Source: Prevotella sp.
GTDB lineage: Bacteria; Bacteroidota; Bacteroidia; Bacteroidales; Bacteroidaceae
Reading direction: 5' to 3'
NCBI GenBank assembly: GCA_016290175.1
Contig: JAEETD010000004.1
Location: 1 to 64,000, forward strand
Length of the DNA stretch: 64,000 nt
The translations under genes were made by a program, and so were the position numbers. This document shows, one piece after another, positions 22,441 through 52,088 of this stretch; the first letter of the stretch is position 1; every line of letters starts with the position of its first letter. Below the pieces are notes generated by a model, which saw only the letters and a program-made list of their open reading frames with translations, was not told where the DNA came from and made no database searches.

Positions 22441-22502
22441 ACTTTTAATAAATATAAAATTAATAATGTGCTTCGAAAAGCGGGTGCAAAGGTACTAATT
22501 AT

Positions 22503-22537
22503 AATTCATAATTAATAATGCATAATGCATAATTAAC
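22503..22537. repeat. Heptad array upstream of the rpsF promoter
   Basis: AATTCAT AATTAAT AATGCAT AATGCAT AATTAAC; minus-strand -7 box TACCTTTGC at 22486-22494. Confidence 0.85.
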
Positions 22538-22554
22538 CCAATCCTTAACAGAAT

Positions 22555-22725
22555 TTAATACTTCTCACCTGATTTTGCGTATTTTACATGAAGAATAAGG
22601 CCTATGAATATGATTATCAGGCCCAAAAGCAAGACCAGATTACTCGATGTCCTGTCTGCCAAATAAGCGACGATCAAAAAGAGGGCGCCGGCTATCACCA
22701 GCGCCACTCCTATCCATTTATTCAT
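22555..22725 (-). CDS. Small two-TM membrane protein (56 aa), not in the ORF track
   Basis: Manual translation MNKWIGVALVIAGALFLIVAYLADRTSSNLVLLLGLIIIFIGLILHVKYAKSGEKY*; overlaps the 3' end of the response regulator gene by 8 bp. Confidence 0.8.
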   Translation of the reverse strand: MNKWIGVALVIAGALFLIVAYLADRTSSNLVLLLGLIIIFIGLILHVKYAKSGEKY

Positions 22726-23416
22726 CCTCGGGGGTAATCAGTTTGTAACCCTTACCGTGAATATTGATAATCTCAATCTGTGGATCATCCTTCAGATGTT
22801 TACGCAGCTTAGTGATATAGACATCCATCGAGCGGGCATTGAAGTAGTTGTCATCAATCCAGATGGTCTTCAGGGCGAAGTCGCGCTGCAGGATCTCGTT
22901 AGCATGAGAACAAAGCAATGCGAGAAGCTCGTTCTCCTTGGTGGTCAGCTTACGCTGTTCGTCACCCAGACAAAGCAGCTGTTTCTGGGTATCGAAGGTG
23001 AACTGTCCGATGCGGTAGACGGTGCTCTCCTTGTTTTTCTTACCCTTCGTACGACGGATAATAGCCTCAATACGGAACACGAGTTCTTCCATTGAGAAGG
23101 GTTTGGTGATATAGTCGTCGGCACCAATCTTGAAGCCTTCGAGGATATCCTCCTTCAACGTCTTGGCTGTCAGGAAAATGATAGGAATATCCTGATTGGA
23201 ATTGCGGATCTCCTTCGCCAGCGTGAAGCCGTCCTTCTTAGGCATCATCACGTCGAGCACACAGATATCGAACTTCGTCTTCAGGAAGGCCTTGTAGCCA
23301 AGCTCACCATCGGCACAGAGTTCGGTAGCAAACCCCTTTGCCTGCAAATACTCACGGAGCAACATTCCGAGGTTCTCATCGTCCTCGCAAAGCAAAATCT
23401 TCAGTTTCTCGTCCAT
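22718..23416 (-). CDS. rprY: OmpR-family response regulator, RprY-type
   Basis: Receiver domain (CEDDENLG, DVMMPKKDG, TAKT, KPF) and winged-helix output domain (ARSMDVYITKLRKHLKDDP); RprY-like. Confidence 0.85.
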   Translation of the reverse strand: MDEKLKILLCEDDENLGMLLREYLQAKGFATELCADGELGYKAFLKTKFDICVLDVMMPKKDGFTLAKEIRNSNQDIPIIFLTAKTLKEDILEGFKIGADDYITKPFSMEELVFRIEAIIRRTKGKKNKESTVYRIGQFTFDTQKQLLCLGDEQRKLTTKENELLALLCSHANEILQRDFALKTIWIDDNYFNARSMDVYITKLRKHLKDDPQIEIINIHGKGYKLITPEDE

Positions 23417-23447
23417 AATCTAATAATTTATAAATTTGACAATATTG

Positions 23448-25010
23448 TTAATTTGTATCTTCTCGTAAGATGGGAAGCGTAATTGTGAAGGTGGTTCCCT
23501 TGCCCAGTTCACTCTCACATTTGATCTCGCCTTCGTGCAGGTTGATGATCTTCTTGACATAGGCAAGACCGAGGCCGAAGCCCTTGACATCGTGCACATT
23601 ACCCGTATGAACACGGTAGAACTTGTCGAAGATCTTCTTCACGTTCTCCTTCTTGATACCCAATCCCGTGTCGCGGATGCTGAAACAGAGATGCTCCTTC
23701 TCGTTCCAGGTACGGATATAGAGGTCGAGCGGCTCATCGGGTTTACGGTATTTCACCGCGTTATCCATCAGATTGGTGATGGCGTTCTGGAAATGCACCT
23801 CATCGACATAGATGGCGGAATCGACGGCCTCTATCTCGGTATAGATCTTACCACCCGTATGCTCCACACGCAGGGAGAAGGTGCTGGCGATACTTTCCAA
23901 CAACTCGTTGAGGTCGAGTTCCTTTTTCTTGAACGATGCCGTCTTACGGTCGAACATCGACATCTGCAGCACTTTCTCCACGAGGAAGCGGAGACGTTTC
24001 GATTCGTCATTGATGATGCCTCCCAAGTGCTTCATTATCTGCGGCGTCTTAACTACCGTATCATCGTTCAACATCTGTGCAGCAAGGGAGATACTGGAGA
24101 TAGGCGTCTTCAACTCGTGGGTCATGTTGTTGATGAAGTCGTTCTTGATCTCAGAGTAGCGCTTCTGACGGAAGATGACCACAATCGTGAACACGAAGGT
24201 AATCAGCAACACGACGGTGAAAATCATCGACGGGATCATGAACCGTACACTCGAGAAAATATAGGAGTTCATGTCAGGGAAGTGGACCTTCACCACACCC
24301 ATCTTGGGCGACGGGTCATTACGGAACAGCGTCTGGGTATAGACATGCTCCCTACCCTCGTCCGTATAATCCGGACAACGATACACCTCACGTCCGTCAC
24401 TCGTCTCAACAGTGAAGTGATAAGGGATGTTGATGCCGTTGTTCAGCAGTTCCACTTTGATATCGCGGTCCAGTAGACGGAAATTGACACGTTCCTTCAA
24501 GGGCTTGTCGGAAGCAGTATATAAGATGTTATAGACCACCTCATCGAGCAAGGCCTTCTGATAGACATAGCGATTACGGACAATCTCCTGAAGCGACTTT
24601 GATGCTTCAGAGATGCTGCTCTTATCCGTACGCAGAATCATCGCCTTGGAAACACTGGCGGGCTTAATGGCGAAAGTCTTCAGTTCAAAACTGGAATAGA
24701 CCGTCCCGTCATCAGCAGCTACTGCGAACTGGTGTGACTGCTTGACGGTACCGTCGAGTCCATCAACCATCATCGAGTCCTGACTATAGGCGCGACGCTC
24801 TGTATCCTTGACGTCCTTCTCCAGGTAACGCATGGTCTCGTTCATCTCCAGATTATGAGAGGCCTGATAAAGGCTGCGGTTCACCGATTCGTCAAACTGC
24901 TCCTTCTTCATCTTCGCCATCTGCTCGATGTAGGAGAGCTGCAAGAAAAGAAGCCCCAAAAACGAGAGGCCCATTATCGTTGCTATAATCCAAATCGTAC
25001 TTTTCTTCAT
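23448..25010 (-). CDS. rprX: Sensor histidine kinase, RprX-type
   Basis: Two TMs, H-box MTHELKTPISSISLAAQ, N box NAITNLMDNAVKY, G boxes; adjacent to the RprY-like regulator. Confidence 0.85.
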   Translation of the reverse strand: MKKSTIWIIATIMGLSFLGLLFLQLSYIEQMAKMKKEQFDESVNRSLYQASHNLEMNETMRYLEKDVKDTERRAYSQDSMMVDGLDGTVKQSHQFAVAADDGTVYSSFELKTFAIKPASVSKAMILRTDKSSISEASKSLQEIVRNRYVYQKALLDEVVYNILYTASDKPLKERVNFRLLDRDIKVELLNNGINIPYHFTVETSDGREVYRCPDYTDEGREHVYTQTLFRNDPSPKMGVVKVHFPDMNSYIFSSVRFMIPSMIFTVVLLITFVFTIVVIFRQKRYSEIKNDFINNMTHELKTPISSISLAAQMLNDDTVVKTPQIMKHLGGIINDESKRLRFLVEKVLQMSMFDRKTASFKKKELDLNELLESIASTFSLRVEHTGGKIYTEIEAVDSAIYVDEVHFQNAITNLMDNAVKYRKPDEPLDLYIRTWNEKEHLCFSIRDTGLGIKKENVKKIFDKFYRVHTGNVHDVKGFGLGLAYVKKIINLHEGEIKCESELGKGTTFTITLPILREDTN

Positions 25011-25174
25011 TTTTCTTTTCTATTGCGAGTGCAAAGATAGTGGATTTCTTAAAATCCTTAATGAGTTTTGTTAATTAATTATGGCAAATTTAAGAAAGTT
25101 AACAAAATGCACAATATATAGATACTATATTTTAACCATCAAATCAGTTGCCCAAATAAAACAGGCAGAAAAAA

Positions 25175-25196
25175 GCCCCGTTCTGAAGAACGAGGC
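25175..25196 (-). terminator. Terminator downstream of rprX-upstream small gene (25222-25704)
   Basis: GCCTCGTTCT-TC-AGAACGGGGC then TTTTTT on the minus strand. Confidence 0.75.
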
Positions 25197-50868: not shown

Positions 50869-51016
50869 GATACATCCAATAGATATATCCTATCACTGCT
50901 GCCAATACGATCAGTACAATCGAACGGATGAGGCAGCTGGCTACTTTCTTGATAATCAGGAAAGCAACGATGACTGCAACTAAAAGAAAAATGTAATATC
51001 CAATACTATTCTCCAT
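50861..51016 (-). CDS. Small membrane protein (51 aa), not in the ORF track
   Basis: Manual translation MENSIGYYIFLLVAVIVAFLIIKKVASCLIRSIVLIVLAAVIGYIYWMYLR*; 2 bp downstream of the rlu gene. Confidence 0.8.
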   Translation of the reverse strand: MENSIGYYIFLLVAVIVAFLIIKKVASCLIRSIVLIVLAAVIGYIYWMYLR

Positions 51017-51018
51017 AA

Positions 51019-51912
51019 TCAGAACATTTTTTTAAAGGCCGTTGGTAAAGGGGTCTCAAACTCCATAGGCTCACCCGTCACAGGATGATGGAAACACAGC
51101 AGCCAGGCATGCAGGCAAAGACGATGCAGCGGGTCGTCACCATTGCCGTATTTCGGATCGCCACAGACAGGATGTCCCATATCGGCAGAATGGACGCGGA
51201 TCTGATTCTTACGACCCGTCTCCAACTTGAACTCCACCAAGGAATGATCAGCCGTACGGGCCAGTACATGGTAATGGGTGATGGCATACTTACCACCATT
51301 ATCGACAGGCGACGAGTAGGTAACATAAGCCTTGTTGTCCTTCAGCCAGTTCTCTATCGTACCGTCGTCTTCTGCAATCTCTCCTGAGCAGACGGCCACA
51401 TAGCGACGGTCGTAGACGATCTCGTGCCAATTATGCTCCAGGATCTGTTCCGTCTCCATATCCTTGGCGTAGACCATCAGTCCGCTGGTGTCGCGGTCGA
51501 GACGATGGACTACATGTGACGTGCACTTCTGGCGCGACTTCTTGAAGTAGTCGTCGAGCACGCTCTTCACATTCAAAGTTGAGTGGCCGCCAGCCATCGA
51601 GAGAATACCTTCGGCCTTCTCAACGACAATCAGCCAACGGTCTTCATAAACGATCTTCACCCAACGGTTCTTAAAGCCCTGCTGGTTGCGCTTGGTCTTG
51701 CTCACGGCAATCTTCATGCCCTTCTCCAAAGGGAAGTCGAACTGCGATACCGTCTTACCGTCGACCTTGATGCCCCGCCCTTGCAGCGTGGCCTTGATCT
51801 TCGACTTCGACTGCGGCACATTCGCCAACAGCCATTCGAGCAACGGCATCGGCTCAGAGACGACGAAATGGTCGTACTCTCCCTCACGGTTATATCCTGC
51901 ATTGTATCTCAT
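51019..51912 (-). CDS. RluA-family RNA pseudouridine synthase
   Basis: S4-like N-terminus; HVVHRLDRDTSGLMVYAK and TGRKNQIRVHSADMGHPVCGDPKYG. Start moved from the track. Confidence 0.92.
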   Translation of the reverse strand: MRYNAGYNREGEYDHFVVSEPMPLLEWLLANVPQSKSKIKATLQGRGIKVDGKTVSQFDFPLEKGMKIAVSKTKRNQQGFKNRWVKIVYEDRWLIVVEKAEGILSMAGGHSTLNVKSVLDDYFKKSRQKCTSHVVHRLDRDTSGLMVYAKDMETEQILEHNWHEIVYDRRYVAVCSGEIAEDDGTIENWLKDNKAYVTYSSPVDNGGKYAITHYHVLARTADHSLVEFKLETGRKNQIRVHSADMGHPVCGDPKYGNGDDPLHRLCLHAWLLCFHHPVTGEPMEFETPLPTAFKKMF

Positions 51913-51947
51913 ATCTGCTGATTTTGGGTGCAAAGTTACGTATTTTT

Positions 51948-51982
51948 ATTGAACATTGACCATTGAAAATGGAAAATTATGC
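51948..51982. repeat. Heptad array upstream of the rlu promoter
   Basis: ATTGAAC ATTGACC ATTGAAA ATGGAAA ATTATGC; minus-strand -7 box TAACTTTGC at 51930-51938. Confidence 0.8.
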
Positions 51983-51997
51983 AGGCTGCATCAAATT

Positions 51998-52025
51998 TTT
52001 CACTGTTCACTGTTCACTATTCACT
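51998..52025. repeat. Heptad array upstream of the ABC-F promoter
   Basis: TTTCACT GTTCACT GTTCACT ATTCACT, spacer ATTTTTTCG, -7 box TACCTTTGC. Confidence 0.9.
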
Positions 52026-52088
52026 ATTTTTTCGTACCTTTGCACCCTCATTCAGTAGTGTATATATATAATAAGGTATAAGGAAGAG

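Follow-up and report, generated by a model that had tools for sequence, protein, structure and literature searches.

Rumen Prevotella genomes contain hundreds of short blocks, each consisting of about four copies of a single 7-base word, and many of these blocks occupy the position of the upstream half of a promoter. In related species such a block is kept at the same place with a different word; it is thus the spacing that is conserved, and not the sequence. The arrays have a characteristic size, they are dispersed and recur in particular placements, and between species they are gained and have their units replaced en bloc. They probably constitute a genus-wide Prevotella class of dispersed repeats of about 30 bp, which overwrite weakly constrained DNA and replace the -33 element of promoters.

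Heptamer arrays in the window and the genome

Tandem arrays were found with TRF together with a count of lag-7 matches, an array being defined by at least 22 matches in 28. In the window (the whole stretch of 64,000 nt of Prevotella sp. DNA that was analyzed), this threshold gives seven arrays at lag 7, five of them at promoters, and zero to three at each other lag from 2 to 20; dinucleotide shuffles of the window (n = 50) give no lag-7 array. The genome sample comprised 931 kb (~31% of the genome) in stretches, partly from contigs with known arrays. Its 366 sampled intergenic gaps hold 60 lag-7 arrays versus 0.1 from shuffles, in agreement with the lag-7 signal above shuffled sequence that a first-pass annotation of this DNA had anticipated. 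Counts at the neighboring lags are 15 (lag 8) and 13 (lag 9), and the tandem units are specific in their 7-bp period. (Blocks with 8-bp and 9-bp units also exist and are rarer; arrays of most other periods are rare.) Array density in the sample, 141/Mb, is biased upward because the sample was drawn in part from contigs chosen for TTCACT arrays; by our own count it is ~42/Mb in unselected small contigs.

An assembly artefact is ruled out because arrays are also present in isolates (L116) and in the finished chromosome of Prevotella communis (L179). An Rfam search of five sources returned no family covering the arrays, its matches being limited to 16S rRNA for the window and a tRNA for L097, and no account of such Prevotella repeats was found in the open-access literature (subscription journals lay outside the search).

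About 50 of the 131 arrays in the genome sample lie in coding sequence, in frame; others lie at gene ends or form hairpin arms. Two arrays in the window sit within coding sequence, so arrays are not limited to promoters:

11428..11493, + strand: CACCCAT/CACCCAA array, in frame, in the protein linker of a coding sequence
13881..13924, - strand: TCTTCCT-type array within gene 12941-14290

Orthologs have no array, or different 7-bp units, at the linker position of the former.

Arrays at promoters and their change between species

The promoter loci of the window contain the following features:

22486..22494, - strand: rpsF -7 box, TACCTTTGC; box shared by nearly all of the 64 species compared
22496..22537, - strand: rpsF 7-bp array of ATGMATT type, at the -33 place; unit swapped in orthologs
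35840..35848, - strand: mazG -7 box, TATCTTTGC
35850..35886 (period-7 tract 35844-35889), unstranded: ATAATTC array common to the divergent mazG/valS promoters
35893..35901, + strand: valS (Val-tRNA synthetase) -7 box, TAATTTTGC
43826..43865, + strand: decayed ATGAATT array upstream of the uvrB box; 16/28 lag-7 matches
43866..43874, + strand: uvrB -7 box, TATCTTTGC
45915..45961, + strand: left arm, AATAGTG-type array over the uvrB 3' end; inverted relative to 45995-46028
45983..45995, + strand: conserved core GCGGCAGCAAATT of the element upstream of the DUF4468 gene
45995..46028 (period-7 tract 45990-46031), + strand: right arm, TTCACTN x4, upstream of the DUF4468 gene
46033..46041, + strand: DUF4468 gene -7 box, TACTTTTGC
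50127..50135, - strand: UbiA-family gene -7 box, TATTTTTGC
50145..50175 (period-7 tract 50130-50182), unstranded: ATGAATT x4, common to the divergent UbiA/HD-gene promoters
50180..50188, + strand: HD-domain gene -7 box, TATATTTGC
51930..51938, - strand: pseudouridine synthase gene (rlu) -7 box, TAACTTTGC
51948..51977, - strand: rlu promoter array, ATTGAAC type; absent in L106-L110
51999..52025 (period-7 tract 51991-52035), + strand: ABC-F promoter array, TTCACTN x4; window and L105 only
52035..52043, + strand: ABC-F gene -7 box, TACCTTTGC

Bacteroidetes sigma-ABfr promoters consist of a -33 TTTG and a -7 TAnnTTTG element (PMC7366714). Transcription from promoters of this type begins about 7 nt past the -7 box. 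The array promoters of Prevotella have the identical -7 box upstream of the gene, conserved among orthologs, but they have ~28 bp of 7-bp repeats instead of the -33 TTTG: TTTG at -24/-23 is seen at 0 of 34 array boxes versus 67 of 193 other boxes (p=3e-6). TTCACT arrays end 8-9 nt before the TA of the -7 box in 12 of 15 cases. When an array was sought in -45 to -1 of 294 -7 boxes lying up to 300 nt upstream of genes, 29 boxes had one at lag 7, compared with 0-2 at lags 4-6 and 8-13 and 16 at lag 14, a multiple. Arrays crowd -7 boxes (24 observed, 7.9 by random placement, with a maximum of 16 in 200 trials) and avoid convergent gaps (p=3e-4).

The first-pass annotation had located the -7 boxes correctly, and its claims that arrays lie in the -33 place at a fixed distance from the box, and are enriched near -7 boxes genome-wide, are upheld by these counts. 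The single architecture that it ascribed to seven promoters holds overall, the exception being uvrB, which has no clean array. Its view of the arrays as a promoter feature fits their excess at boxes but was too narrow, as they also occupy coding sequence, gene ends and hairpin arms. It overlooked the double use of the arrays at 35850-35886 and 50145-50175, each of which serves a pair of divergent -7 boxes. The first of these belongs to a two-box ATAATTC module that is dispersed as a whole (63-68 bp), with 36 matches in the window's own genome.

Turnover is visible at rpsF, where, among the 64 species, the box lies mostly 51-58 nt before the ATG and an array, if present, lies upstream of it. 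A 7-bp array precedes the same -7 box in 18 of the 64 species, in at least 12 different units, and -33 TTTG is found in 1 of these 18 versus 20 of the 46 species without an array. In L327 the flanks are 98/90% identical and the array 58%; in L326 these values are 91/85% and 31%. Orthologous uvrB promoters carry a clean array, ATGCATTATGCATTATGAATTATGAATT, in L106 and an ATCAATT type in L105 and L109, and decayed arrays are seen at both uvrB and rpsF. Between the two conserved -7 boxes of rlu and ABC-F, L106-L110 have ordinary sequence, with TTTGG at the -33 of ABC-F and no array, whereas in the window and L105 this sequence has been replaced, core included.

An array promoter presumably still works, since rpsF, valS and uvrB would be driven from such promoters. 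The conservation of the -7 box suggests that these promoters are active as such, with AT-rich phasing presumably replacing the -33 function.

Hairpin elements, array size and the origin of the blocks

Arrays also make up the arms of hairpin elements, which are dispersed and carry conserved cores (folding z of -4 to -12.5). The core depends on the family, being GCRGYAGCAAATT for TTCACTN and GTAATCATA or GTAATCTC for others, and the inverted arm pairs are present in many copies with 13-59 nt between arms. Dispersal was counted with exact patterns; TTCACTNx3 was set aside because its N allows the same arrays to match, which makes the reversed control useless. The core sequence GCGGYAGCAAATT has 45 copies in the own genome (reversed control 0), AGTGAAYx3 is found at 74 places there (control 0), and the arm-plus-core 20-mer GCRGYAGCAAATTNTTCACT is present in 78 of 200 Prevotella-genus genomes (control 0). 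Array length has a median of 30 bp. Its peak lies at 4-4.5 units whether the DNA is intergenic or coding, a clear preference for four units.

In the reading favored here, a block of ~30 bp, in which a 7-bp word is repeated about four times, would stand alone or as two inverted hairpin arms around a short family-specific core. Blocks would be copied into little-constrained DNA, overwriting what was there. Such places would be signal peptides and protein linkers, the interval that separates a stop codon from the following start or -7 box, and the stretch ahead of a -7 box, where the array would take over from the -33 TTTG and the promoter would keep working. Spread would rely on copying, through template switching or through recombination at short stretches of shared sequence, without a transposase. 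A more tentative possibility is that a length-controlled process writes ~30 bp of 7-mers and repeatedly rewrites the same spots, creating a class of housekeeping promoters set by period, length and phase and not by -33 sequence.

Counting against the dispersed-block reading, some arrays appear to have grown from a local seed (GGACAAT, at 54317 in L105, and CACCCAT, whose 7-mer occurs in array-free L186), as slippage would explain. Slippage alone, in which a local 7-mer duplicates, expands and decays, with 7 nt as a favored polymerase slip and promoters as AT-rich, weakly constrained spots, would account for these two gains, which reuse a 7-mer found once in array-free relatives, and for the decayed arrays at uvrB and rpsF; slippage of heptamers has been proposed before, as cited in PMC4692102. 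It is nevertheless unlikely as the whole explanation: it does not predict the sharp size, with a peak at 4-4.5 units and no fall from 2 upward, dozens of loci carry the same few families, conserved cores included, and core and array were gained jointly at rlu/ABC-F.

The many-copy inverted pairs with conserved cores would suit MITE- or REPIN-like elements, moved as a pair by a transposase acting in trans (e.g. of Y1/RAYT type) and leaving single arms as remnants; a motif search of the own-genome sample turned up a single ORF carrying the Y1 motif MPNHVHLL (L093). However, the conserved sequence lies at the inner ends while the outer ends are variable heptamers, the few empty sites compared show no target-site duplication, and families with different cores have one common 7-bp, 30-bp plan, all of which makes this origin improbable.

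The first-pass annotation had inferred a role for the arrays as promoter elements of variable copy number; dedicated elements of this kind would tune expression. That the phase relative to the -7 box is fixed and the -33 element excluded agrees with a dedicated role, but all 29 promoter arrays have 4-5 units (elsewhere mostly the same range), and alignment of orthologs reveals no change in number, presence and unit sequence being what differs. With the majority of arrays away from promoters as well, this view has become quite implausible. Still less plausible is a role as tandem operator sites (iterons) bound by a sequence-specific regulator: unit spacing and number are fixed at promoters, but closely related species have different units at one and the same promoter, as at rpsF, as do different promoters within one genome, and coding DNA has the same arrays. 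A telomerase-like reverse transcriptase copying a template would give tandem repeats in fixed register, and a bacterial enzyme that makes tandem-repeat DNA exists (DRT10, PMC12632851); this origin is largely excluded, since RVT_1 has no match in the own genome or in array-bearing G007, G032, G176 and G177 (some assemblies being ~83% complete). G-quadruplex formation, put forward for the four-unit GGGNATC repeats of Xanthomonas and Nostoc, which are alike in period and four-unit preference (PMC4692102), is rejected for the Prevotella genus, since only 3 of 254 arrays are capable of it and 236 arrays without any GGG or CCC have the identical 4-4.5 unit peak.

Relation to known heptamer repeats

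The STRR of heterocystous cyanobacteria (Calothrix, Nostoc/Anabaena) are 7-bp tandem units of several families per genome, dispersed and mostly intergenic. The analogy drawn to them in the first-pass annotation is apt as regards the tandem 7-bp units, the several unit families per genome and the dispersal; the many arrays in coding sequence depart from intergenic confinement of the STRR type. We know of no description in which STRR replace a -33 promoter element, swap units between orthologous promoters or flank cores like GCRGYAGCAAATT as arms. Calothrix heptamers are cited in PMC4692102. The GGGNATC heptamers described there prefer four units, form many inverted pairs, lie between aligned ORFs, are rare between divergent ORFs and are ascribed to G-quadruplexes (PMC4692102). 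Period 7, the preference for four units, inverted pairs and a location between aligned ORFs recur in Prevotella, but its units almost never contain GGG, and its arrays are found commonly in divergent gaps and directly beside -7 boxes.

For some Bacteroidetes, heptamer repeats have already been mentioned beside TAACTGA, which is found as 2-6 direct copies in Beggiatoaceae, cyanobacteria and five Bacteroidetes (MacGregor 2015, PMC4679880). TAACTGA is one dominant unit lying a few nt from start codons, with a proposed translational role (PMC4679880); the Prevotella arrays are likewise direct heptamer repeats, but built from many other units and often placed at -7 boxes that lie ~50-55 nt ahead of the start codon. 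The BrickBuilt MITE of Porphyromonas gingivalis is also a dispersed inverted-repeat element with tandem repeats in a Bacteroidales host, and has promoter activity; unlike the 7-bp Prevotella units, which also occur in coding sequence, it has 19 copies of a 23-bp unit and IS-end-like terminal repeats and is always intergenic (PMC4596501).

Taken together, the Prevotella arrays are best read as a relative of the heptamer repeats in cyanobacteria, Beggiatoaceae and Xanthomonas. Bacterial heptamer repeats have been known for decades and, to our knowledge, have no accepted origin or function. Hundreds of sequenced Prevotella species offer size-matched arrays whose words differ at shared sites, which gives a direct view of gain, swap and decay, and the four-unit preference of units that form no G-quadruplex means that the standing explanation fails as a general one. 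If the array promoters are active, the main Bacteroidetes promoter accepts almost any 7-bp word in place of its upstream half, and an upstream half that is replaceable in this way would bear on promoter prediction and on how expression tools for gut and rumen Bacteroidales are designed.

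Period-7 arrays in the window and across the genus

The source assembly (3.03 Mb, 83% complete; the window is its contig 140) belongs to the genus Prevotella, and the closest named relatives are rumen Prevotella. Using a strict test of at least 22 matches in 28 at lag 7, the window contains seven period-7 arrays; other lags give 0-3 each, and 50 dinucleotide shuffles give none. Five of the seven lie at promoters named in the first-pass annotation, while the other two are inside coding sequence; the uvrB array that it also listed is decayed, with 16/28 lag-7 matches, and falls below the test. 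Features of the window outside the period-7 set include:

14294-14326: 8-bp array, TTTACCTT, missing from the first-pass list
61940-61970: 8-bp array, GTAAAAAG, likewise missing from that list
1-976, minus strand: partial 16S rRNA gene, cut by the window edge

In a 931-kb sample of the source genome, where a dicodon model supplied the gene calls, the lag-7 comparison finds 60 period-7 arrays in 366 intergenic gaps versus 0.1 after shuffling. Periods 8 (15 arrays) and 9 (13 arrays) are rarer in the same gaps, and the remaining single periods give 0-4 each, save multiples of 7, 8 and 11. Convergent gaps are avoided (1 array in 47, versus 71 in the 319 others; p=3e-4). Because some contigs were picked for carrying TTCACT arrays, the density of this sample, 141 arrays per Mb, is biased upward; the corresponding figures are 80 for a set of 80 rumen loci, 50 for other stretches of the genus, and 11 for the order's other families. 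This choice does not drive the comparison between periods or between positions in a gap. The arrays are a real, abundant, genus-wide feature, centred on Prevotella, and their dominant words are species-specific, such as TTGACAG in the Prevotella genome G009. (One locus of that genome, L242, has very long TTGACAG arrays, up to ~25 units, several per 20 kb.)

Arrays at promoters

The promoter part of the first-pass annotation is confirmed by position. A lag-7 array lies within the preceding 45 nt at 29 of the 294 -7 boxes located upstream of genes, and any other short lag is found at no more than 2; intergenic arrays end beside a -7 box in 24 cases, versus 7.9 when placed at random within the same gaps (maximum 16 in 200 trials). 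TTTG lies at -24/-23 from the box in 67/193 array-free promoters but in 0/34 array promoters (p=3e-6), and the distance from the final TTCACT unit to the TA is 9 nt in 10 of 15 cases and 8 nt in another 2. The array thus substitutes for the -33 element, as had been proposed, and does so in a fixed register with the box. The array blocks may provide AT-rich stretches where ordinary promoters also carry them, a possible reason why the promoter accepts any word. The idea that they are copy-number-variable promoter elements was not borne out: every one of the 29 arrays at promoters contains 4-5 units.

Coding arrays and hairpin elements

Coding sequences hold the same array families in frame. Several encode a signal peptide's hydrophobic segment (such as MKKILYILFTIHCSLFTLLLLSACTE in L100), others encode linkers, and still others overlap stop codons. 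TTCACTN arrays form the signal-peptide hydrophobic core (ILFTIHCSLFT) of different proteins at the following loci:

L040: 4443 and 5145
L042: 1990
L051: 12659
L087: 8916
L089: 3972
L100: 11119
L105 and L106 (syntenic relatives): at window ~46875

The array at window ~46875 is present in these two relatives and absent from five genomes. One coding linker, compared across species, has no array or has CACCCAT, CAACACT (13 units), CTCACCA, CATCATC or further units.

The genome sample also contains 13 inverted array pairs. The inner edge of the arms carries a family-specific core: GCGGYAGCAAA for TTCACTN, GTAATCATA for AACTCTT, and GTAATCTC for AAAGAGG. The source genome has 45 copies of GCGGYAGCAAATT and none of its reversed control; exact matches to the 20-mer GCRGYAGCAAATTNTTCACT are present in 78 of 200 genomes of the genus, with up to 49 copies per genome, and to its control in none. 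In one of the genus genomes (G064), the majority of copies are inverted pairs with cores facing, 13-59 nt between them and arrays on the outer sides. In two species (L403, L407) the space separating putative acyl carrier protein and fabF genes is taken up by a hairpin element whose arms are heptamer arrays. Such elements are predicted to fold as long hairpins. The two-box ATAATTC module of the mazG-valS gap is also dispersed, with 36 matches in the source genome and 26 in another, G174. The window has one hairpin-type element and, separately, an inverted pair of 8-bp arrays:

45915-46041: hairpin-type element; left arm over the uvrB stop, then core, then right arm adjoining a -7 box
41678-41826: inverted 8-bp arrays, TTAGTCAT x4 and AAATGACT x3, either side of a perfect AT palindrome of 40 nt (41737-41776)

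At the latter site the relative L105 has TTGCATCC arrays and a different palindrome, and L108 has TTGACAG arrays and a third palindrome.

Unit swapping and the origin of the arrays

Six syntenic relatives (L105-L110; ~86% DNA identity) were compared with the window. In the rlu/ABC-F gap, L106-L110 have ordinary promoters with TTTGG, whereas in the window and L105 a core and arrays replace the entire stretch between both -7 boxes. The end of the ABC-F gene has no units in L107-L110, two in L106 and five in L105. At the uvrB promoter, the L106 array is clean, L105 and L109 have a different unit, and the rest are decayed. The DUF4468 gene has a TTCACT array only in the window, L105 and L109; at this site L106, L107 and L108 have 11-bp repeats of the AGTTAAAGRG type.

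Unit swapping is clearest at the rpsF promoter. Among 64 species its -7 box is almost invariant and is preceded by a period-7 array in 18; no arrays of period 5, 6 or 8-11 were found there. These arrays use at least 12 different units, including ATGCATT, CAACTGT, TACCTCT, TCAATTG, GTTCATA, TTTAATG and TTCACTT, and a -33 TTTG/TTGG/TTGC is present in 1 of the 18 array promoters versus 20 of the 46 others (p=0.003). Relative to the window, the flanks in L327 are 98% and 90% identical but the array 58%, and in L326 91% and 85% but the array 31%. Point mutation cannot alter four copies in concert while leaving the flanks at 90% identity; the array block has been replaced.

The most frequent array length is 4-4.5 units (28-32 bp), in both intergenic and coding DNA, and arrays of 2-3 units are few, though detectable by the test. 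Median lengths are 29.5 bp for period 8 and 26 bp for period 9. Total length may be the quantity that is set; this is suggestive only, since the detection floor rises with period. In 63% of arrays, versus 0.3% of random segments, at least 90% of the G+C on a strand is of one kind.

Heptamer repeats are already known in cyanobacteria, Beggiatoaceae and Xanthomonas (PMC4679880, PMC4692102); searches of open-access papers turned up no account of such repeats in Prevotella. The Xanthomonas repeats also prefer four units and form inverted pairs, and their number has been attributed to G-quadruplexes (PMC4692102), but the Prevotella arrays cannot form these (only 3/254 are capable), and the peak at 4-4.5 units persists in the 236 arrays that lack both GGG and CCC. 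The BrickBuilt element of P. gingivalis, another Bacteroidales repeat with promoter activity, has a 23-bp unit rather than 7 bp (PMC4596501).

Copying of ~30-bp blocks through short shared sequences fits best; blocks would move between sites by this route. Certain array gains carry a local 7-mer seed, which could be the shared sequence for such copying or a start for slippage. Slippage by itself leaves the size peak, the conservation of the cores and the joint arrival of core and array unaccounted for, and no reverse transcriptase need be invoked as a writer of arrays. (Locus L093 of the genome sample has a 254-aa ORF with the Y1/RAYT-type motif MPNHVHLL.) The new, testable point is the swapping of units at conserved positions.
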